From positions 744,001 to 808,000 of the forward strand of contig JAGYIE010000002.1 in the NCBI GenBank assembly GCA_018402765.1: a stretch of DNA of 64,000 nucleotides, read 5' to 3'. The notes beneath the pieces were generated by a model. The model was not told the origin of the DNA and ran no database searches. It saw only the letters and a list, made by a program, of their open reading frames with translations. The stretch's first letter is position 1; every line of letters starts with the position of its first letter. The position numbers were made by a program, and so were the translations under genes. This document shows, piece after piece, positions 17,705 to 27,501 of the stretch. The DNA is from Vicingaceae bacterium (GTDB taxonomy: Bacteria > Bacteroidota > Bacteroidia > Flavobacteriales_E > Vicingaceae).

Positions 17705-18174
17705 AGCTGAATAGGTACTTTTTGGTGAATACTTACTGGAAACGTCTTATTAACTAAAAATGCCCCACCTTTAATGTTGCCATTTAATTCTACGTTTACT
17801 TCTTTACCTCCCGAGGTAGCTAGGTTTAATAACTTGGGCAAAGAGGTAATAGTTAGTTTTGAGATGTTTAGATTGAAATTAATTTGATGACTTTCTTTAG
17901 AGTCTCCCTTTATCTTGAAGGATTCATTAAGAGTAGTTTTTCCAAGATCAATACCTTCTAGTTTAATATCAAACTCAGCTCCTTTCACATTTATGCTAAA
18001 AGGGTTTGGATTGAATATTTCAGCATTTACACTAAAATCAATTATGCTGGAAGAGATATTCTTAACTTTTAATCGTTCAATTTTTGTTAATTCTACTTCT
18101 TCTATTCCTGTGCAAGACAGAAAAACTGTACTCATTATGATCATCATGAGTGCAGTAAATAAATTATTTTTCAT
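17701..18174 (-). CDS. LEA type 2 family lipoprotein
   Basis: A 157-residue lipoprotein with a lipobox at FLSC (Cys21). The mature domain is LEA14/WHy-like: VKNISSSIIDFSVNAEIFNPNPFSINVKGAEFDIKLEGIDLG shows the paired strands and the NPNPF signature of late-embryogenesis-abundant type 2 domains. In bacteria these are small beta-sandwich proteins tied to desiccation or envelope stress, but the biochemical function is unproven. It is the last gene of the gpmI-peptidase-LEA unit, starting 4 nt after the peptidase stop. It overlaps the stop of the convergent PKD gene by 4 nt. Confidence 0.85.
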   Translation of the reverse strand: MKNNLFTALMMIIMSTVFLSCTGIEEVELTKIERLKVKNISSSIIDFSVNAEIFNPNPFSINVKGAEFDIKLEGIDLGKTTLNESFKIKGDSKESHQINFNLNISKLTITSLPKLLNLATSGGKEVNVELNGNIKGGAFLVNKTFPVSIHQKVPIQL

Positions 18175-18178
18175 TTTT

Positions 18179-19549
18179 TCATTTTTTTAATTGCGAAAAA
18201 TTTTCAAAGAAATAAGGTATGGTTTCAATTCCCTTTAGGAAGTTAAAAATACCATAATGTTCGTTAGGAGAGTGTATAGCATCAGAATTTAATCCAAATC
18301 CAAGTAAGATTGATTTCAAGCCTAATTCTTTTTCAAAAAGCGCAACAATTGGAATACTTCCGCCTGCTCTAACCGGAATAGATGGCTTACCAAAAGTAGT
18401 TGCTATTGCCTTAGCAGCTGCCTGATATGCAGGAATATCTATTGGTGTCACATATGGCTCTCCACCATGATGAGGCTTTACCACTACTTTTACACTGTCA
18501 GGAGCTATAGACTTAAAGTGATTTTTGAATAATTGAGTAATTTCTTCGCTGCTCTGATTTGGAACTAAACGCATTGATATTTTTGCTTGTGCTTTTGATG
18601 GCAAAACTGTCTTTGCACCTTCTCCAATGTAACCTCCCCATATTCCATTTACATCGAGTGTTGGTCTGATAGATGTTCTTTCTATTGTGCTATATCCTTT
18701 TTCTCCATGTACATCATTAATGTTTAAATGATCTTTATAATCATTTAATTCAAAAGGAGTTTTAGCCATTTCAGCGCGTTCTTCAGCACTTACTTCTACT
18801 ACATTGTCATAAAATCCAGGAATGGTAATTCGATTATTTTCGTCTGTAAGAGATGCGATCATTTTGCTTAGTATATTGATAGGATTTGCTACTGCTCCTC
18901 CATACACACCTGAGTGTAAATCCCGATTAGGACCTGTTATTTCTACTTCTAGGTATGACAAACCTTTTAATCCTGTAGTAATTGAAGGGTGCTCCATCGA
19001 TAACATAGAAGTATCTGAAATCAAGATAATATCGGCTTTTAAGCGCTCCGTATTTTCTTTAATAAACGTGCCCAGATTCACAGAGCCCACTTCTTCTTCT
19101 CCTTCAATGATAAATTTGACGTTACAAGGTAATTGGTTGGTTTTTATCATTAATTCCAGCGCCTTAACATGCATATAGATTTGACCTTTGTCATCTGCGG
19201 CACCCCGAGCATAAATTTTACCATCTTTGATAACGGGCATAAAGGGAGGAGAATCCCATAATTCTATTGGGTCTGCCGGTTGAACATCATAATGTCCATA
19301 AACCAAAATTGTTGGTAGTGTAGGATCAATAATCTTTTCTCCATAAACTACAGGATAACCTGCTGTTGGACACAGTTCAGTATTTTCTGCACCTGCTAAT
19401 TCTAGGGTTTTTTTAACTGCTTCAGCTGCGGCCATCGTATCATTTTTATATGCTGAGTCAGCACTGATAGATGGAATTTTTAGTAATTCGACCAATTCTG
19501 CAATAAAACGATCTTTGTTTGCTTCAATGTACTTTTTAACGTCTTTCAT
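18179..19549 (-). CDS. M20 family metallopeptidase (dipeptidase)
   Basis: A 456-residue zinc dipeptidase of the M20 clan without a signal peptide, so cytoplasmic. First metal ligand: the His of LVYGHYDVQP, in the Asp-containing HYDVQP block typical of the M20 carnosinase/DapE-like branch. Bridging Asp: GAADDKGQIYMH. General base and ligand Glu pair: FIIEGEEEVGS. The dimerisation (lid) domain lies between about 180 and 340 and includes DLHSGVYGGAVANP, and the last His ligand is in SDAIHSPNEHYG. Substrate is probably Xaa-Xaa dipeptides. It sits 8 nt downstream of gpmI. Confidence 0.9.
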   Translation of the reverse strand: MKDVKKYIEANKDRFIAELVELLKIPSISADSAYKNDTMAAAEAVKKTLELAGAENTELCPTAGYPVVYGEKIIDPTLPTILVYGHYDVQPADPIELWDSPPFMPVIKDGKIYARGAADDKGQIYMHVKALELMIKTNQLPCNVKFIIEGEEEVGSVNLGTFIKENTERLKADIILISDTSMLSMEHPSITTGLKGLSYLEVEITGPNRDLHSGVYGGAVANPINILSKMIASLTDENNRITIPGFYDNVVEVSAEERAEMAKTPFELNDYKDHLNINDVHGEKGYSTIERTSIRPTLDVNGIWGGYIGEGAKTVLPSKAQAKISMRLVPNQSSEEITQLFKNHFKSIAPDSVKVVVKPHHGGEPYVTPIDIPAYQAAAKAIATTFGKPSIPVRAGGSIPIVALFEKELGLKSILLGFGLNSDAIHSPNEHYGIFNFLKGIETIPYFFENFSQLKK

Positions 19550-19557
19550 ACTATACT

Positions 19558-21087
19558 TTAATCTTTTATTAATGATTTTCCGGTCATCTCTATTGGCTGC
19601 TTTATTCCCATAATCTTTAAAATTGTAGGAGCAACATCTGCTAGAATGCCATTATTAATTTCTTTGTAATCTTTATCAATTATAAATAAAGGTACTGGAT
19701 TGGTTGTGTGAGCCGTGTTAGGAGAGCCATCTGCATTAATAGCAAAATCTGCATTTCCATGATCTGCAATTATAATAAATGTGTAGTCTCTTAATAATCC
19801 CGCTTCTACAATTTCTTTGGTACAATTATCTACAGTTTCTACTGCTTTCACAATAGCATCAAATACACCCGTATGGCCCACCATGTCTGGATTCGCAAAA
19901 TTAAGACAGATAAAGTCTGTAGATTGTTTATTGATTTCTTGGATAATTTTATCTGTAATCTCTTTTGCACTCATCTCTGGCTGCTGATCATAGGTACTCA
20001 CTTTAGGAGATTGTACCATAATGCGTTTCTCTCCTTCAAATGGCGCTTCTTGTCCCCCTGAAAAGAAAAATGTCACATGTGGATACTTTTCTGTTTCTGC
20101 TATCCGGATTTGCCTTTTCCCTGCTTTTGATATAAGTTCTCCTAAAGTATTCTTTAGGTTGTCTTTATCAAAAATAATGTGAATACCATTAAAGGTGCTG
20201 TCATAATTGGTCATTGTTACGTAATGCAACGGGAGTGTATGCATTTTGTATTCAGGAAATTCTTTTTGTGTTAAAGCCGATGTAATTTCTCTACAACGAT
20301 CTGTTCTATAATTAAAACAGATAACAACATCTCCTTCACAAATTTTCGCAATTGGGTTATTTTCTTTATCAGTAAAAACAATCGGTTTAATAAACTCATC
20401 AGTGATATTATTTTCATATGCGTCTTTTACTGCCTGCAATGGATCCTTGTATTTTTTTCCTATTCCTGCTGTGAGCAGATCGTATGCTATTTTTATTCGC
20501 TCCCATCTATTGTCTCTATCCATTGCATAATATCGTCCAACTATAGTCGCTAGCTGTGCTGATGATTCGGCAAGCTTGTGCTGTAAACGTTGAATGTGTT
20601 CAATTCCACTAGTTGGTTTACTATCTCTGCCATCCGTAAACGCATGGACGAATACATTCTGTAAACCTTCTTTGGCTGCAATGTCTAATAGTTTATATAA
20701 ATGCTTTGTATGGGAATGAATTCCTCCATCAGAAACTAAGCCCATTAGATGAATAGCTTTGCCGTTCTTTTTGGCGTAAATCATAGCGTTCAGAACTACT
20801 TCATTATCGCTTATTGAATCATCATCTACCGCCTTGTTGATTTTTACTAAATCTTGGTAGATCACCCTTCCGGCCCCTATATTTAAGTGACCAACTTCAG
20901 AGTTCCCCATCTGACCATTTGGAAGCCCTACATGCTCTCCATCTGTTCTTAACGTTGCAGTTGGATATACAACCATAAGATTGTCTATAAATGGAGTTTT
21001 TGCCTTAAATATAGCATCTGATGGCGATTTGTCGCCAATACCCCATCCATCTAAAATTAACAAAGCAACTTTCTTCGTGGCTGTCAT
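19558..21087 (-). CDS. gpmI: 2,3-bisphosphoglycerate-independent phosphoglycerate mutase
   Basis: A 509-residue di-manganese glycolytic enzyme interconverting 3- and 2-phosphoglycerate. N-terminal metal site LLILDGWGIGD. The phosphoserine nucleophile is the Ser of GQMGNSEVGHLNIGAGR. The transferase insert includes GLVSDGGIHSH, AFTDGRDSKP and GRYYAMDRDNRWER. The C-terminal phosphatase-like metal cluster has PDMVGHTG and IIADHGNAD. Full length for the family. First gene of the minus-strand gpmI-M20-LEA unit, with its own TAnnTTTG box. Confidence 0.97.
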   Translation of the reverse strand: MTATKKVALLILDGWGIGDKSPSDAIFKAKTPFIDNLMVVYPTATLRTDGEHVGLPNGQMGNSEVGHLNIGAGRVIYQDLVKINKAVDDDSISDNEVVLNAMIYAKKNGKAIHLMGLVSDGGIHSHTKHLYKLLDIAAKEGLQNVFVHAFTDGRDSKPTSGIEHIQRLQHKLAESSAQLATIVGRYYAMDRDNRWERIKIAYDLLTAGIGKKYKDPLQAVKDAYENNITDEFIKPIVFTDKENNPIAKICEGDVVICFNYRTDRCREITSALTQKEFPEYKMHTLPLHYVTMTNYDSTFNGIHIIFDKDNLKNTLGELISKAGKRQIRIAETEKYPHVTFFFSGGQEAPFEGEKRIMVQSPKVSTYDQQPEMSAKEITDKIIQEINKQSTDFICLNFANPDMVGHTGVFDAIVKAVETVDNCTKEIVEAGLLRDYTFIIIADHGNADFAINADGSPNTAHTTNPVPLFIIDKDYKEINNGILADVAPTILKIMGIKQPIEMTGKSLIKD

Positions 21088-21104
21088 ACGCTATTGTGTT
21101 TATG

Positions 21105-21112
21105 CAAAATTA
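21105..21112 (-). promoter_or_regulatory. -7 promoter element (TAATTTTG) of gpmI
   Basis: TAnnTTTG on the minus strand, 17 nt upstream of the gpmI ATG at 21087. Confidence 0.5.
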
Positions 21113-21189
21113 ACTCTTAAAAAGGGGCTTTGAAAGGCCAAAGTATAAAATCATTTTATATCTTATAAATCATTTTGACTCGATAACAT

Positions 21190-21935
21190 TTAAATAAGTT
21201 TTTCGCCACCTTTAATCCCAAAGTAAAGTGCTCTAACCGGAAATGGAATCATAAAGTTATTCTGATTAAATGTTTTTTAAGCTATATAAGATCCTCACTT
21301 CTTGTTTCCATATAGCTGGTTTGAGTAGTGTTGTTGATCCATAAAAAGAGATTAAAATTGATAGAACTGTCTCAAAAGGAAATATACAAAAAGGAGAATC
21401 TGTCGTTTTTGCTTGTATTAGAATAATCTTCAAAAGCACTTTTAAATACATCTTTTATTAGACAATATGATTTCTTATCTATCGAAGTTGTGAATAGTCA
21501 TTGCCCTAAGGCTAATCTGTTGGTTAAATAATATATAACGGTTTGATTATATTACTTCACCAGCTTTAAATGTTTTTTGTACAGCAAAGAATATCCCAGC
21601 CATGCAGTTTACTGATGTATCTTGAAATGTAAAACTAAAAACAAAACCAACCACTCCAACTCCTGCAAGTAGGTAAGTAGATGGTTTACATAAATTTAAT
21701 ATGCCCAAAGCAAAAAATAATCCAACCATCATTGCAATTAGTTAAAGAGTATTGCTTATTAATCTATTTAAGGATAAGTGATTATATTTATGTAACAATT
21801 ATAAAAAAAAGTCTTGTTATTGGCTTAGTTAGAAAATAGAAACTAACTAAAATAAGTATCGCTACTGCGATATTTGGCAGTATATCAACAAATGAATTTA
21901 GCCATCCTGTTAGCTTCTAAAGTAAAATGTCATAG
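21190..21935 (-). pseudogene. Decayed small-conductance mechanosensitive channel (MscS family) gene
   Basis: The 870-nt gap between gpmI and the kinase gene is not empty. Read on the minus strand from about 21935, one frame gives an MscS-like run: GWLNSFVDILPNIAVAILIL, a stop, another stop, then LLAGVGVVGFVFSFTFQD and AGIFFAVQKTFKAGEVI (the pore helix and cytoplasmic junction), a stop, and ISLRAMTIHNFDR. A second frame then continues DVFKSAFEDYSN, has an apparent internal deletion, and gives DSSINFNLFLWINNTTQ. A third frame ends IPFPVRALYFGIKGGEKL and a stop at 21190. All pieces are in the order of an intact channel, which would be near 280 residues. At least six in-frame stops, two frameshifts and one deletion make it non-functional. 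The exact 5' limit is uncertain. Confidence 0.85.
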
Positions 21936-21957
21936 GTCTTATTTAAACTGATTTCTT

Positions 21958-23397
21958 TTAAAATTGCTTTAGCTTTATGCTAAATTTAGTGCCAATACCC
22001 AGCTCACTTTCAACTCCAATTGTTGCATGATGTGCGTTTATTATATTTTGTGTAGTCGTAAGTCCTAGACCCATTCCTGTCCTTTTTCCAGTGTAAAATG
22101 CATCAAAAAGATTGTTAAGCTTTTCTTTACCAATTCCTTCTCCATTATCACTTATTTCTATTAATAGGTGATTACTATCAATTTTCGTTTCTATTGTTAA
22201 TATACCTTTTTCGTCTTCCATTGCTTCAATAGCATTAATAATAATATTTAGGACAGCAATTTTTAGCTGCTCTCCGTCAATAAGTGTTTTTGTCGGCTTG
22301 GTGTTTAGTAAAAGCTTTAATTCAACGTATTTTAATTTTATCCGATCTTTTGCAAGCTCTAATATTTTAGGAATAAAATCATCTAGTACTACGGGTAATA
22401 ATTCAACTTTTGTAGGTTTTGTTGAATTTAATAGCTCTGTAATCAAATTATTTATTCGGTCTGAGTTTCGCTTTATGATTTCACTGTAGATTTTATTGCT
22501 GCTATCTTCCGGCATATCTATAGTCATTTGTTCCAGAGATAGATTTATGTTTGTTAAGGGGTTCCTTACTTCGTGAGCGATACTTCTAGCAAGTCTTCCT
22601 GTCATCCCTAATTTTTCAGCTCTAAGTATTTGTAGTTCATTTTCCTTTTGCTTGGTGTTATCTCTAATTATTCCTTGGTAACCCTCTATTTCATGGGATA
22701 GATCAAATAAGACAATTGTTGTTATGGAACAATTTAATTTCTTCCCATCTTTTCGGATAAGAATTGCTTCGAAGTCTTTAATTAATCCCTTACTAAATAA
22801 TGCTGCTTTAAAATTATCGAAGGTTTCTTGTTCAAGAAAAAGCGACTGCAAGGGGATTTTAGATAATTCCACTTTGCTGTAGCCAAATAAATTAGACATA
22901 GATTCATTGGTTTCTGTAAAGAATAACTGCTTATCAATAACGTAAATAGGATCTATAGAGCGATGGAATAGGGTTTTGTACTTTGCTTCTCGTTGGTTAA
23001 TTTTTTCTTTTGAGATGTACCGCTCAATTGCATAGCGAATAGAGCGTTCTAGTTTTTCTGCGGATAATTCTGATTTGATTAGGTAATCATCAGCCCCCAT
23101 TTTCATAGCTAACATATCAATTTCCCTATCACCTTGGCCGGTCAAAATAATGATTGGCTTGTTGGAATTATTATTCCTTGCAAATTTTAAAAGGTCTAAA
23201 CCAGAGCGCTTACCTAGTCTGTAATCAATAAGAAATAGATCAGTTTCTTCGCTTTGTATTTCTTTTTCAGCATCCTCAAAATCACTTATCCACTTGCAGT
23301 GAATAGTGATTAATTCAATGTCCGAAAGGTAATCCTCTGTGAGAATGAAATCATCCTCATCATCATCAATTATAGTAATGGTTATATTTTCAATCAT
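21958..23397 (-). CDS. Receiver-PAS-histidine kinase
   Basis: A 479-residue soluble sensor kinase. Order: an N-terminal receiver (about 5-125, acidic cluster DDDEDD at 11-16, phosphoacceptor Asp58 in LFLIDYRLGKRSG), a PAS domain (about 140-250), a HisKA helix pair with the phosphorylated His275 in SIAHEVRNPLTNINLSL, and a HATPase_c domain (NIIINAIEAMED, SDNGEGIGKEKL, TGMGLGLTTTQN). No membrane segment. The receiver at the N-terminus suggests that the kinase is itself controlled by another phosphodonor, perhaps the single-domain receiver encoded two genes upstream. It is the last gene of a three-gene unit, starting 5 nt after the activator gene. Confidence 0.9.
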   Translation of the reverse strand: MIENITITIIDDDEDDFILTEDYLSDIELITIHCKWISDFEDAEKEIQSEETDLFLIDYRLGKRSGLDLLKFARNNNSNKPIIILTGQGDREIDMLAMKMGADDYLIKSELSAEKLERSIRYAIERYISKEKINQREAKYKTLFHRSIDPIYVIDKQLFFTETNESMSNLFGYSKVELSKIPLQSLFLEQETFDNFKAALFSKGLIKDFEAILIRKDGKKLNCSITTIVLFDLSHEIEGYQGIIRDNTKQKENELQILRAEKLGMTGRLARSIAHEVRNPLTNINLSLEQMTIDMPEDSSNKIYSEIIKRNSDRINNLITELLNSTKPTKVELLPVVLDDFIPKILELAKDRIKLKYVELKLLLNTKPTKTLIDGEQLKIAVLNIIINAIEAMEDEKGILTIETKIDSNHLLIEISDNGEGIGKEKLNNLFDAFYTGKRTGMGLGLTTTQNIINAHHATIGVESELGIGTKFSIKLKQF

Positions 23398-23402
23398 TTA
23401 AC

Positions 23403-24803
23403 TTAACTTTTTAGGTCGATATTATAACTTTCCATTTTATTGTAAAGCGTTTTTCTATCTATTTGAAGTACATTGGCTGCCTTTGTTTTGTTGTAACCGA
23501 CCTGTTCTAAAACCTTAAGAATTGCTTTTTTTTCTGCTGCCTCCGCAACCGATTTGAGGTCTGTAAAGCTTTCCTCCTCATCAAGTTCAGGTGATAAGTT
23601 ATAGCTAGGAGAAATAATTTCAACAGGTAATGCGCTAGTTTCCATTTGCTCACCTGGAGACAAGAGCACACCACGTTTGATTACATTTTTTAGCTCTCTT
23701 AAATTACCATGCCAATAGTATCCTTTAAGTTTCTGTAAGGTGGAATGTTCTATGGATTTAACCTCTTTTCCTAGTTCTTGATTAGCATTCTCTAGAAAAT
23801 GATTTGCAAAAAGTTCAATATCTTCTTTTCGTTCTCTTAATGGAGCGAGTTCAACTATAAATTCATTCAGTCGATAGAATAGGTCTTCTCTGAATTTACC
23901 ATTTTTTACCGCAGTCAATAAATCCTCATTACTTGCTGCTAGTACTCTTACATCTATATCAAAATCTTTATTATCCCCGATTTTTCTTACCTTCCTTTCT
24001 TGCAAAACACGTAGTAGTTTTATTTGATTTTCATACGATAAATTGCCTATTTCATCTAAGAAGATTGTTCCGCCATTAGCGTACTCGAAATGACCAACTT
24101 TGTTATTTAGAGCACCTGTAAATGATCCTTTTATATGACCAAAAAGTTCGCTCGCTGCCAGTTCCTTCGGAAGTGCTCCACAATCTATTGCCACAAATGA
24201 CTTGCCCGACCGTTTACTCTTCTTATGAATCGATTTGGCGACGAACTCTTTACCTGTGCCACTCTCTCCTTGAATAATTACACTCATGTCAGTAGGTGCT
24301 AGCAAGTTTATTAATTGCTCAATTCTTTTCGATTGTGGGCTTTTTCCTTCGATAAATACATCTTTGTTAATTGCTTTCTTGTCATTTTTTTGAGGCCTTA
24401 TTGACTTGACTCCATGTTCTGATGTAAATAAAGAAATGTCTTCTTTAAGTGCTTTTTTAATTGCATGTAGAATTTCTTCATGAAAAATTGGCTTGGTTAC
24501 ATATTCACTTGCACCCATTTTTATGCATTGTACCGCAGTTTTCACGTCAGAATAACCTGTTATGATAATTACCTTCGCAGAAGGATTGGTCTTTTTAATT
24601 TCTTTCAACATTTCTGAACCGTCCATATCAGGTAACCTGAAATCACATAAAACCAAATTAATTGTACTTTTTTCAAGGATTGAAAGCGCACTTTTTCCTG
24701 TGTAGGCAAGCTCTACATTGTACCCATTTTTGGTTAAGTATTTCTTTAACAACAGGCAGATGTCTGTATCATCGTCGATTACTAATATCTTTTCTTTCAT
24801 CAT
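23403..24803 (-). CDS. NtrC-type sigma-54-dependent response regulator
   Basis: A 466-residue transcription activator. The receiver (about 4-120) has DDDTD at 10-14 and phosphoacceptor Asp54 in LVLCDFRLPDMDG. The AAA+ domain (about 155-385) has Walker A GESGTGKE at 179-186, a sigma-54 contact loop GSFTGA (the GAFTGA motif with Ser), GGTIFLDEIGNL as Walker B, and FREDLFYRLNEF. The C-terminal Fis-type HTH has YNKTKAANVLQIDRKTLYNKM. It should drive RpoN promoters of unknown targets. I see no -24/-12 promoter in the operon's own upstream region. Two adjacent ATGs (24803 and 24800) could start it. Confidence 0.93.
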   Translation of the reverse strand: MMKEKILVIDDDTDICLLLKKYLTKNGYNVELAYTGKSALSILEKSTINLVLCDFRLPDMDGSEMLKEIKKTNPSAKVIIITGYSDVKTAVQCIKMGASEYVTKPIFHEEILHAIKKALKEDISLFTSEHGVKSIRPQKNDKKAINKDVFIEGKSPQSKRIEQLINLLAPTDMSVIIQGESGTGKEFVAKSIHKKSKRSGKSFVAIDCGALPKELAASELFGHIKGSFTGALNNKVGHFEYANGGTIFLDEIGNLSYENQIKLLRVLQERKVRKIGDNKDFDIDVRVLAASNEDLLTAVKNGKFREDLFYRLNEFIVELAPLRERKEDIELFANHFLENANQELGKEVKSIEHSTLQKLKGYYWHGNLRELKNVIKRGVLLSPGEQMETSALPVEIISPSYNLSPELDEEESFTDLKSVAEAAEKKAILKVLEQVGYNKTKAANVLQIDRKTLYNKMESYNIDLKS

Positions 24804-24810
24804 TATGTTT

Positions 24811-25176
24811 TTAAAGGTTAAGTATAGTTATTGTTTTTAGGATTAGTTCTTTATTTAAAGGTTTGCCAATAAAGTCGCTAATTCCAAATTTTGAAAAGGC
24901 GTAATCACGTTCTTTTTGACTGTCATATGCACTTATTATTACAACAGTTGAGTTCGGTGATTCTTTTTGGATAAAAGGTATAATAGTATAGCCTGAACCA
25001 TCAGGTAAATTTAAATCTAAAAGTATAATGTGTGGAATTATTTCAACAATCTTTTGTTTTCCTTCTTCAAGAGAATTTGCATAATTAGTCGCTTGACCTT
25101 CTTTTGTAAGCAATGAGCTTAGTAGCCAACAAATATCCATTTCGTCATCTATTATTAAGATTCGATTATATTTCAT
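24811..25176 (-). CDS. Single-domain response regulator
   Basis: A 121-residue stand-alone receiver: ILIIDDEMD acidic pair near 10-12, phosphoacceptor Asp54 in IILLDLNLPDGSG, conserved Ser/Thr in VVIISAYDS, and Lys in DFIGKPLN. No output domain. I start at the ATG at 25176, where the first beta strand begins; a longer start at 25227 would add 17 residues foreign to the fold. As first gene of the unit with the NtrC-type activator and the receiver-bearing kinase, it is a natural shuttle or phosphate sink in a relay. Confidence 0.88.
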   Translation of the reverse strand: MKYNRILIIDDEMDICWLLSSLLTKEGQATNYANSLEEGKQKIVEIIPHIILLDLNLPDGSGYTIIPFIQKESPNSTVVIISAYDSQKERDYAFSKFGISDFIGKPLNKELILKTITILNL

Positions 25177-25345
25177 AGTAATTGAGTTAATACTTCTACA
25201 CGTCGAAAGGTTTAGTTCGTTTACCATTAAATAGGGACAGCCTATCTAAATTGTTATCTATTTGGTATATAGAAAATTATAGTTTTAAGCCTTAAGATAT
25301 AGCATGTTTGAGCTATCTTAAACAATAAATATTCCTTTTACAAAG

Positions 25346-25833
25346 ATGAAAAACTCAATCATGACTAAAACACTAATTTTATTCTTGTCAATTAGTGCAC
25401 AATCTTTTTCTCAAGAGTCTGTAGAAGAGGTTCTTACGATTTGTGGTAAAGTGGAGTCAGGAAAACAACTTGTTGAAGGATAAGCCATTACGGTGGTTAA
25501 GAATAATAAGTGTTTAATGATATTGATCATATTAAAGGATATCGATTAGATTTAACATTAGATGGGACGTACTCCATTCTATTTGAAAAGGGAGGCTATC
25601 TAACCAAGTCAGTGATCATAAATGGAATGATTGATTCAGATGTAAAATTCAATAGAACAACGTTTCAAATGGACATAAATTTGGTATGAATTGAAGACTT
25701 TATGCAAGATAAGTTTTGCCTACTACCTGTGGCAAAAATATATTTCGACAAAAGGAACCAAGTATTTACATTTGATAAATCGTACACGAAAGAAATGCTA
25801 AAGCTTTACGACCGAATTAAGTCAAAAAAATAA
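25346..25833 (+). pseudogene. Broken secreted protein gene, paralogue of the convergent gene at 25846-26415
   Basis: An ATG at 25346 starts a good signal peptide (MTKTLILFLSISAQSFSQ) and continues TICGKVESGKQLVEG to a stop. The coding signal then resumes as AITVVKNNK and shifts frame to YRLDLTLDGTYSILFEKGGY and FQMDINLV, meets a TGA, and continues in the same frame with PVAKIYFDKRNQVFTFDKSYTKEMLKLY to a stop at 25833. The pieces follow the same order as the intact neighbour (ADGYYTKRFIF; FKFDMDIF; PVGVVKYNNKKEEFEHNKSYT). Two stops and at least one frameshift: a dead copy. The two paralogues converge with 12 nt between their ends. Read-through or sequencing error is possible but would have to occur three times. 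Confidence 0.8.
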
Positions 25834-25845
25834 TTTTATTTTAGC

Positions 25846-26415
25846 CTATTTTTCATTTGTAAGTTGCATTCTCTTTTGTAATTCTGACTCAATTAGCAAG
25901 TCTTTATAGACTTTTTTCATCTTATTCGTGTACGACTTATTATGTTCGAATTCTTCTTTTTTGTTATTGTATTTAACTACTCCTACAGGCATATCTAAAG
26001 CCGACGTATTAACCTCATCTAATTCCTTTTCTGAGAATATATCCATGTCGAATTTAAATTCTGGAATGCCATTGCTATACCCTTTCGGAATGGATGTGTC
26101 AAAAATAAATCGTTTTGTGTAATATCCATCAGCTGTAATTTCTATTGTGCAATAAGAATTAATGGGGACATTCGCTTGAAAATTATTTCTTGAATTACTT
26201 GGAACTGACCTAAGCAGACTATTTCTGATGTAGATATTAATAGTATATTTCTTAATCTTAGTTCTGTTATTGTAAATCAGTCCCACAAGCTTAATGCTGT
26301 CTTGTTTTATTAATTTCGGTTGGTTGAGTAGAATAATCTCTGAGTAATTACATGAAAACAATGGGGAGGAACTCAGTAAAATTAAAATTGTCAGCAACTT
26401 TTTTAGGTCATTCAT
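25846..26415 (-). CDS. Secreted carboxypeptidase-regulatory-like domain protein, function unknown
   Basis: A 189-residue protein with an N-terminal export signal ending near residue 21 (...SSPLFSC). The Cys there could be a lipobox, although LFSC is a weak match. The central part (about 35-120) has a CarboxypepD_reg/Ig-like strand pattern with EITADGYYTKRFIFDTSIPKG. The second part holds FKFDMDIF, PVGVVKYNNKKEEFEHNKSYT and a basic helical tail. The DMDIF...P...YN...F...YT layout recurs in small Bacteroidota exported proteins of unknown role. It faces a decayed paralogue, so the family duplicated locally here. Confidence 0.7.
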   Translation of the reverse strand: MNDLKKLLTILILLSSSPLFSCNYSEIILLNQPKLIKQDSIKLVGLIYNNRTKIKKYTINIYIRNSLLRSVPSNSRNNFQANVPINSYCTIEITADGYYTKRFIFDTSIPKGYSNGIPEFKFDMDIFSEKELDEVNTSALDMPVGVVKYNNKKEEFEHNKSYTNKMKKVYKDLLIESELQKRMQLTNEK

Positions 26416-26451
26416 TTTGTTTGGTTGAAGATGTTTTTATATCAGGTCGTA

Positions 26452-26459
26452 CAAATGTA
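26452..26459 (-). promoter_or_regulatory. -7 promoter element (TACATTTG)
   Basis: TAnnTTTG on the minus strand, 36 nt upstream of the ATG at 26415. Confidence 0.5.
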
Positions 26460-26571
26460 TGAAAATTGTTCAATTTAAAGAAAAATGCTATCCTCAATAT
26501 CCTCAGACGGAGTTTTGGTTATGAGTGATAGATGCGTTTAAGAGAAAGTTTCTTTAAATACACGACATAAA

Positions 26572-26604
26572 AAAACCCTAACTAGGAAATCTAATTAGGG
26601 TTTT
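26572..26604 (-). terminator. Rho-independent terminator after tRNA-Phe
   Basis: Inverted repeat with arms AAACCCTAA and TTAGGGTTT, an inner CTAG-like stem with one mismatch and a 5-nt loop. On the minus strand it is followed by a T-run, 4 nt beyond the tRNA 3' end. Confidence 0.75.
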
Positions 26605-26608
26605 GGAG

Positions 26609-26681
26609 TGGTGCCAGCTGGAATCGAACCAGCGACACAAGGATTTTCAGTCCTTTGCTCTACCGACTGAGCTATGGCACC
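26609..26681 (-). tRNA. tRNA-Phe (GAA)
   Basis: A 73-nt cloverleaf on the minus strand. The acceptor arm GGTGCCA pairs with TGGCACC, the D arm starts GCTCAG, the anticodon loop ACTGAAAAT has GAA at the centre, and the T arm is GGTTCGATTCC. Discriminator base A; the CCA end is not encoded. A promoter box lies at 26702-26709 and a terminator at 26572-26604, so it is a single-gene unit. Confidence 0.97.
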
Positions 26682-26701
26682 ATTTTTCAACTAAGCGGTC
26701 G

Positions 26702-26709
26702 CAAATGTA
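26702..26709 (-). promoter_or_regulatory. -7 promoter element (TACATTTG) of tRNA-Phe
   Basis: TAnnTTTG on the minus strand, ending 20 nt before the tRNA 5' end at 26681. Confidence 0.55.
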
Positions 26710-26760
26710 TTAATAAAATTCTAATCTTTTAAAATTAAATTTCAAGAATTTTTCTTCCCG

Positions 26761-26768
26761 TATATTTG
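26761..26768 (+). promoter_or_regulatory. -7 promoter element (TATATTTG) of coaX
   Basis: TAnnTTTG ending 4 nt before the coaX ATG at 26773, again implying a leaderless or near-leaderless transcript. Confidence 0.55.
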
Positions 26769-26772
26769 TTTT

Positions 26773-27501
26773 ATGAATTTAGTAATTGATATTGGCAATA
26801 CGTTATCAAAAGTGGGTATTTTTCAGTTTGATAAAGAGGTAGATTCTTTTGTTGCTGAAACACTTAATTTTGAAAAAATTCAACAATTCGTTAGTCAATA
26901 CGCAATTAGTCATTTTATAATGGCATCTGTTAGGTGTAATGATTATAAACTCTTTAGCCTTCTTTCTTCTCAGTATGCAGGGATATATTTAGATCAGAAT
27001 ACACCTTTGCCGATATCGTTAGGGCATTATTCTTCTTCAACAATAGGAGTGGATAGAATTGCTTTATTGGTTGCTGCGAATAAAATTTTCCCTCGTCAAA
27101 ATTGTCTGATAATTGGATGTGGTAGTTGCATAACCTATAATTATTTGACAAAAAATGGTGTGTTTGCGGGAGGAGCTATTTCTCCGGGGATTAACATGAG
27201 ATTAAAAGCTATGCATCAGCTTACAGGCAAGCTTCCTTTGGCAAATTGGGACGGTGTAAGTCTTCCTTCAGAGATAGCAAACTCAACGAATGACTCTTTG
27301 TTGTCAGGTGCGATTAATGGTGCAATATATGAAATGGATGAAGTAATAAATCGATATAACAAGACGTTAAAATATGAACTTAACATTATTTTAAGTGGAG
27401 GTGATGCTAAATTCTTTGAAAAAGAGCTAAAAAATAGCATCTTTGCACACGCAAATTTTGTGCTATACGGACTCAATGAAATACTCCAATTCAATTCTTA
27501 G
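26773..27501 (+). CDS. coaX: Type III pantothenate kinase
   Basis: A 242-residue ASKHA-fold enzyme for the first step of coenzyme A synthesis (pantothenate to 4'-phosphopantothenate). The phosphate-1 motif IDIGNT is at 5-10. The catalytic GVDR motif is intact (Asp94, Arg95). AGGAISPGINMRLKAMHQLTGKLP is the usual pantothenate/dimer block. Oddity: the second phosphate motif, normally IDxGT followed by ITxD, reads IIGCGSCITYNYL, so the Asp is Gly115, the Thr is Ser118 and the later Asp is Asn123. Either activity is altered or the motif tolerates this in the lineage. The gene overlaps the next gene by 26 nt. Confidence 0.88.
   Translation: MNLVIDIGNTLSKVGIFQFDKEVDSFVAETLNFEKIQQFVSQYAISHFIMASVRCNDYKLFSLLSSQYAGIYLDQNTPLPISLGHYSSSTIGVDRIALLVAANKIFPRQNCLIIGCGSCITYNYLTKNGVFAGGAISPGINMRLKAMHQLTGKLPLANWDGVSLPSEIANSTNDSLLSGAINGAIYEMDEVINRYNKTLKYELNIILSGGDAKFFEKELKNSIFAHANFVLYGLNEILQFNS

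Follow-up and report, generated by a model that had tools for sequence, protein, structure and literature searches.

A unitary MscS-family channel pseudogene between gpmI and a sensor kinase operon in a Vicingaceae bacterium

The analysed window is a 64,000-nucleotide stretch of the genome of a Vicingaceae bacterium. Its region of interest carries, on the minus strand, gpmI, a hybrid sensor kinase, an NtrC-type sigma-54 response regulator and a single-domain response regulator, with a damaged small gene on the plus strand at the far side of this operon (Table 1). Among open frames of at least 50 amino acids (aa), the longest in the interval between gpmI and the kinase encodes 61 aa. Frameshift-tolerant protein-to-DNA alignment identified this interval as homologous to an MscS-family channel gene that is intact in a genome of the same genus (G001). 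The first-pass annotation had put the remnant at 21190-21935, which is the right place but falls about 20 bases short of the true extent at each end.

Table 1. Features of the locus (window coordinates)
Feature	Position	Strand	Content or state	Lesions	Basis
gpmI	19558-21087	minus	Intact; downstream flank anchoring the synteny		77% identical to G001, 81% to G002
Whole MscS-family channel remnant	21169-21955	minus	Pseudogene		Alignment to the intact G001 gene; PF00924 match
Remnant segment 1	21794-21955	minus	Presumed N-terminal helix and TM1	Stop 21919	Alignment
Remnant segment 2	21454-21793	minus	TM2, pore helix TM3 and most of the beta domain	Stops 21744, 21549, 21477	Alignment; domain limits from the Pfam domains of the intact gene
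Remnant segment 3	21273-21453	minus	End of the beta domain and part of the C-terminal domain (DSSINFNLFLW)	34-codon gap; stops 21374, 21284	Alignment
Remnant segment 4	21169-21272	minus	IPFPVRALYFGIKGGEKL end	Stop 21192	Alignment
Hybrid sensor kinase	21958-23397	minus	Intact upstream neighbour; receiver, PAS, HisKA, HATPase_c		Pfam
NtrC-type sigma-54 response regulator	23403-24803	minus	Intact; same operon		Pfam
Single-domain response regulator	24811-25227	minus	Complete receiver domain		Pfam (Response_reg)
Second pseudogene (small protein)	25361-25827	plus	Other side of the operon	One frameshift, two stops	Alignment to the intact G001 protein

Residues 3-299 of the 299-residue G001 channel aligned along the whole remnant with a score of 563, compared with a mean of 31 and a maximum of 38 for 20 order-1 Markov resamples and 32 for the opposite strand, and 134 of the 260 aligned codons (51.5%) were identical. 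As read from one assembly, the alignment revealed three frameshifts (near 21793, 21453, and 21272), seven in-frame stops, and a gap of 34 codons between 21414 and 21413, such that the single open frame required of a working MscS channel is lacking. In addition, the first aligned position holds no start codon, the minus strand reading TTA AAA GAA there and overlapping the stop of the kinase. The channels of the more distant G007 and G017 gave scores of 378 and 282, respectively, and located all three breaks no more than about 10 bases from the G001-based positions; six rather than seven stops were recovered with them because both alignments end before the seventh. Moreover, the Pfam search of the genome detected the remnant above the cut-off as a PF00924 match (26.2 bits) with two TAA codons inside it, which, together with the alignment to the G001 gene, indicates MscS ancestry for the beta domain and the C-terminal domain. 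The peptides LLAGVGVVGFVFSFTFQD and IPFPVRALYFGIKGG were both found on the minus strand in one shared frame, with the remaining colinear pieces distributed over the two other frames. Thus, the earlier description, made from the letters alone, of colinear channel pieces spread over three frames, with stops, an apparent deletion and still readable peptides, was accurate.

In G001, gpmI, the channel, the kinase and the NtrC-type regulator all lie on one strand, with 5 bases from the kinase to the channel, and the intact orthologue that the first-pass annotation proposed to look for in sister species, between gpmI and the kinase operon, is thereby found. This intact gene carries four MscS Pfam domains and matches the solved MscS structures 4hw9 (E 4e-32, residues 32-288) and 2oau (residues 1-282). 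In other genomes, the channel lies directly before gpmI (G004, intact), one gene before gpmI (G010), in an 8-base overlap with the kinase (G007), or on the opposite strand at a distance of about 1 kb from the kinase (G017).

Whether the gene is dead or merely fast-evolving can be judged from what has changed. The remnant (51.5% identical to its G001 counterpart) is more diverged than three intact MscS pairs between the same two genomes (62%, 74%, and 79%). Divergence alone is no proof of death, because the intact channel of G004, which belongs to another genus, is about equally far from that of G001 (58% identity; differences at codon positions 1, 2, and 3 of 0.38, 0.20, and 0.60, compared with 0.40, 0.20, and 0.53 for the remnant). 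Third positions of the remnant differ most, as expected if selection had still acted on the gene for some of the time after the two genomes diverged. The stronger evidence comes from 70 residues that are invariant in seven intact relatives (G001, G004, G007, G010, G017, G037, and G040), of which the remnant keeps 42, changes 20, and has no aligned codon for 8. The changed share of the aligned invariants (20/62, 32%) lies above the 1-16% of the leave-one-out controls, in which each intact gene, when left out, had changes at between 1 of 71 and 13 of 83 of the columns on which the other six genes agree. Within the 40-residue pore stretch, 6 of the 18 invariants are changed and the core GLALGFAFQD reads GFVFSFTFQD, revealing that the conserved glycine/alanine-rich pore helix, a mark of working MscS channels, has not been preserved. 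Furthermore, only 62 of the 188 codons that differ from G001 (33%) are synonymous differences, compared with 52-67% in intact genes (kinase, 173/335; gpmI, 204/321; one intact MscS pair, 123/184). The changed invariants and the low synonymous share both indicate that purifying selection has been lost at the remnant. Of seven gene pairs compared between the two genomes, five had matching reading frames and were used; four of these are saturated at synonymous sites (pS 0.77-0.84) and the fifth has a dS of 2.6, and the loss therefore cannot be dated; the fact that the remnant can still be aligned despite this saturation nevertheless suggests that the channel died well after the split from G001. 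The lesions, the lost invariants and the nearly full-length alignment are thus in line with the first-pass wording that the gene is clearly dead and yet recent enough to align.

Taken together, the stretch is best explained as a unitary pseudogene of an MscS-type channel whose function was lost in this lineage, which is now drifting, and whose loss was tolerated (probability about 0.96). The ancestral gene would have stood between gpmI and the operon of the kinase, the NtrC-type regulator and the response regulator, probably as the last gene of that operon. On the lineage leading to this genome, frameshifts and nonsense mutations, together with a deletion of about 100 bases and the disappearance of the start codon, would have abolished its function, and the remnant, presumably making no product, would now be drifting without constraint. 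The loss may have been tolerated owing to the other MscS-domain genes and the one MscL gene that the genome retains. An observation that counts against this explanation is that a 61-codon frame containing the pore stays open, although invariants have been lost there too.

This open frame (21547-21732, around the pore helix) might encode a functional short membrane peptide that survived the channel. It has an ATG, remains uninterrupted, and is 63% identical to G001 (with a query that had ten mistaken residues, one of them inside the match) compared with 51.5% for the whole remnant; pore helices, however, evolve slowly in any case, the pore stretch, with its core motif, shows the changed invariants described above, and the 61-aa product has no Pfam domain at E 0.001, which leaves a surviving peptide very improbable. 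Alternatively, the gene might be intact and its apparent breaks mere errors of sequencing or assembly, which would be conceivable insofar as the lesions are known from one assembly. However, all three frameshifts and seven stops, together with the 34-codon gap, fall within about 790 bases, whereas the open frames of the neighbouring gpmI, kinase and NtrC-type regulator match those of G001 in length. Random errors are unlikely to leave such a clustered pattern, nor do they fit the change of 20 of the 62 aligned invariants, and we give this explanation hardly any weight.

The absence of a long open frame, and the ease with which the interval could be annotated as intergenic, would also suit a regulatory or non-coding RNA sequence whose likeness to a channel is incidental. 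Such a reading is contradicted by the synteny and by an alignment score of 563 against a control maximum of 38, and is extremely unlikely. A search of Rfam over 21050-22000 gave no credible match; the sole hit (E 0.99, 11.5 bits) was far under the gathering score of 100, and a non-coding RNA was accordingly rejected.

The Pfam search detected seven PF00924 matches in the present genome, namely the remnant and six others, compared with eight in G001. Each of the two genomes also has one MscL gene. One of the six is a 164-aa protein (L161 2529-3023; G000:C1) with the MscS beta domain as its only Pfam match; it is either truncated or a short MscS-like protein in its own right and, given that match alone, may not be a full channel. 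With regard to an intact recent duplicate in this genome, a pore-segment query (with ten mistaken residues) found only the remnant at E 0.001. Of the intact genes of this genome, the closest shares 31% identity with the G001 channel, compared with 51% and 33% for pieces of the remnant, indicating that the remnant did not arise by recent duplication of an intact paralogue. Counting the paralogues, as the first-pass annotation had proposed, thus yielded six other MscS-domain matches, and with the MscL gene these are compatible with its suggestion of a redundant paralogue, and such redundancy would be sufficient to account for the tolerance of the loss. Its other suggestion, a habitat with little osmotic downshock as the cause of the loss, found no support and was rejected, as many channels remain. 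Because several other such channels persist in the genome, the loss of this one is ordinary. In another genus of the family, a match resembling MscS (L163 about 1777-2280; G013:C11:254776-255279) is interrupted by a TGA and a TAA and has a short open frame; it is perhaps another independent MscS pseudogene.

The adjacent operon had been described as not affected. This holds for the kinase (479 aa compared with 480 in G001; 66.5% identical over 474 residues) and the NtrC-type regulator (466 aa in both; 77.5% identical), which have kept their G001 lengths, and for the complete receiver domain of the single-domain regulator (51% identical over 116 residues). In comparison with G001, differences at codon positions 1, 2, and 3 were 0.27, 0.18, and 0.59 for the kinase and 0.21, 0.10, and 0.56 for the NtrC-type regulator, demonstrating that both genes are still constrained because positions 1 and 2 change far less than position 3. 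The description fails in one respect: since the G001 channel starts 5 bases after the kinase and is thus probably the last gene of its operon, the operon in the present genome has probably lost a gene. No sigma-54-type sites were found with the pattern used in a scan of window positions 18000-27000 and of locus L035.

A constant partnership of kinase and channel was also considered and rejected. Among 80 named kinase loci (the best 80 of 312, some species being represented twice, with up to 5 kb of flank and less at contig ends), 79 had no channel match (tblastn, E 1e-8), the sole exception being the G001 record. Conversely, no kinase match was found at E 1e-30 in G004, where the channel is present. 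The pairing is therefore loose, and the kinase is not as a rule accompanied by the channel.

Erosion of the locus is not confined to the channel. The second pseudogene aligned with an intact 168-aa protein of G001, with 109 of 155 aligned codons identical and a score of 491 (maximum of 40 in 20 resamples), and its hydrophobic start suggests that the ancestral product was probably secreted. Beside it, a 189-aa protein encoded at window 25846-26415 on the minus strand had no Pfam match at E 0.001 and showed weak similarity to the small G002 protein (24% over 147 residues, E 1e-8), which suggests that the two may descend from an old tandem duplication. In G002, another genome of the same genus, the two regulators, the kinase and the channel are all missing between the 189-aa gene and gpmI (L154 4568-5552; G002:C23); this genome is 69% complete, but the gap lies inside one contig with both conserved flanks. 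When aligned to both strands of the gap, the channel scored 34 and 33, within the range of the controls for the remnant alignment, and the kinase 40 and 41, scores that have no control of their own, while tblastn returned no channel or kinase match below E 0.8 in the whole G002 locus. In G002, the small gene carries a frameshift distinct from that of the present genome, close to its end. As for the relationship of the three genomes, gpmI of the present genome is nearer to that of G002 (Table 1), whereas the peptidase is nearer to that of G001 (92.7% compared with 90.8% for G002). A tentative reading, which we consider possible but rather unlikely, is that a sensor-channel cassette has been dismantled within one genus, being intact in G001, reduced here to a constrained kinase and NtrC-type regulator beside a dead channel and a dead small gene, and gone from G002. 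If that reading were true, the kept operon would have a role independent of the channel.

In practical terms, the region should be annotated as an MscS pseudogene and not as empty, and its significance goes little beyond that. The series of three genomes nevertheless offers a small, clean example of a channel that is lost while its upstream regulators are kept, and argues against assuming that the kinase operon serves the channel. No published record of this case was found in those parts of the literature on mscS pseudogenes and mechanosensitive channels that were consulted. The remnant is an ordinary in-place pseudogene; within the limits of a single sequence, the mode of its loss is established, while the reason for the loss we infer. 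In comparison with the intact channel of G001, it is the same gene in the same slot and on the same strand (134 of 260 aligned codons identical), but the single open frame of G001 is broken in the remnant by three frameshifts and seven stops, and the remnant also has the 34-codon gap and lacks a start codon at the aligned position. Likewise, the small-conductance mechanosensitive channel MscS, as represented by 4hw9 and 2oau, is matched by the intact G001 gene, whereas the remnant is unable to encode such a protein. Unitary bacterial pseudogenes, i.e., single-copy genes decayed in place, are generally marked by in-place loss, kept neighbours and remaining paralogues, all of which are found here, and the remnant thus does not differ from them in kind.
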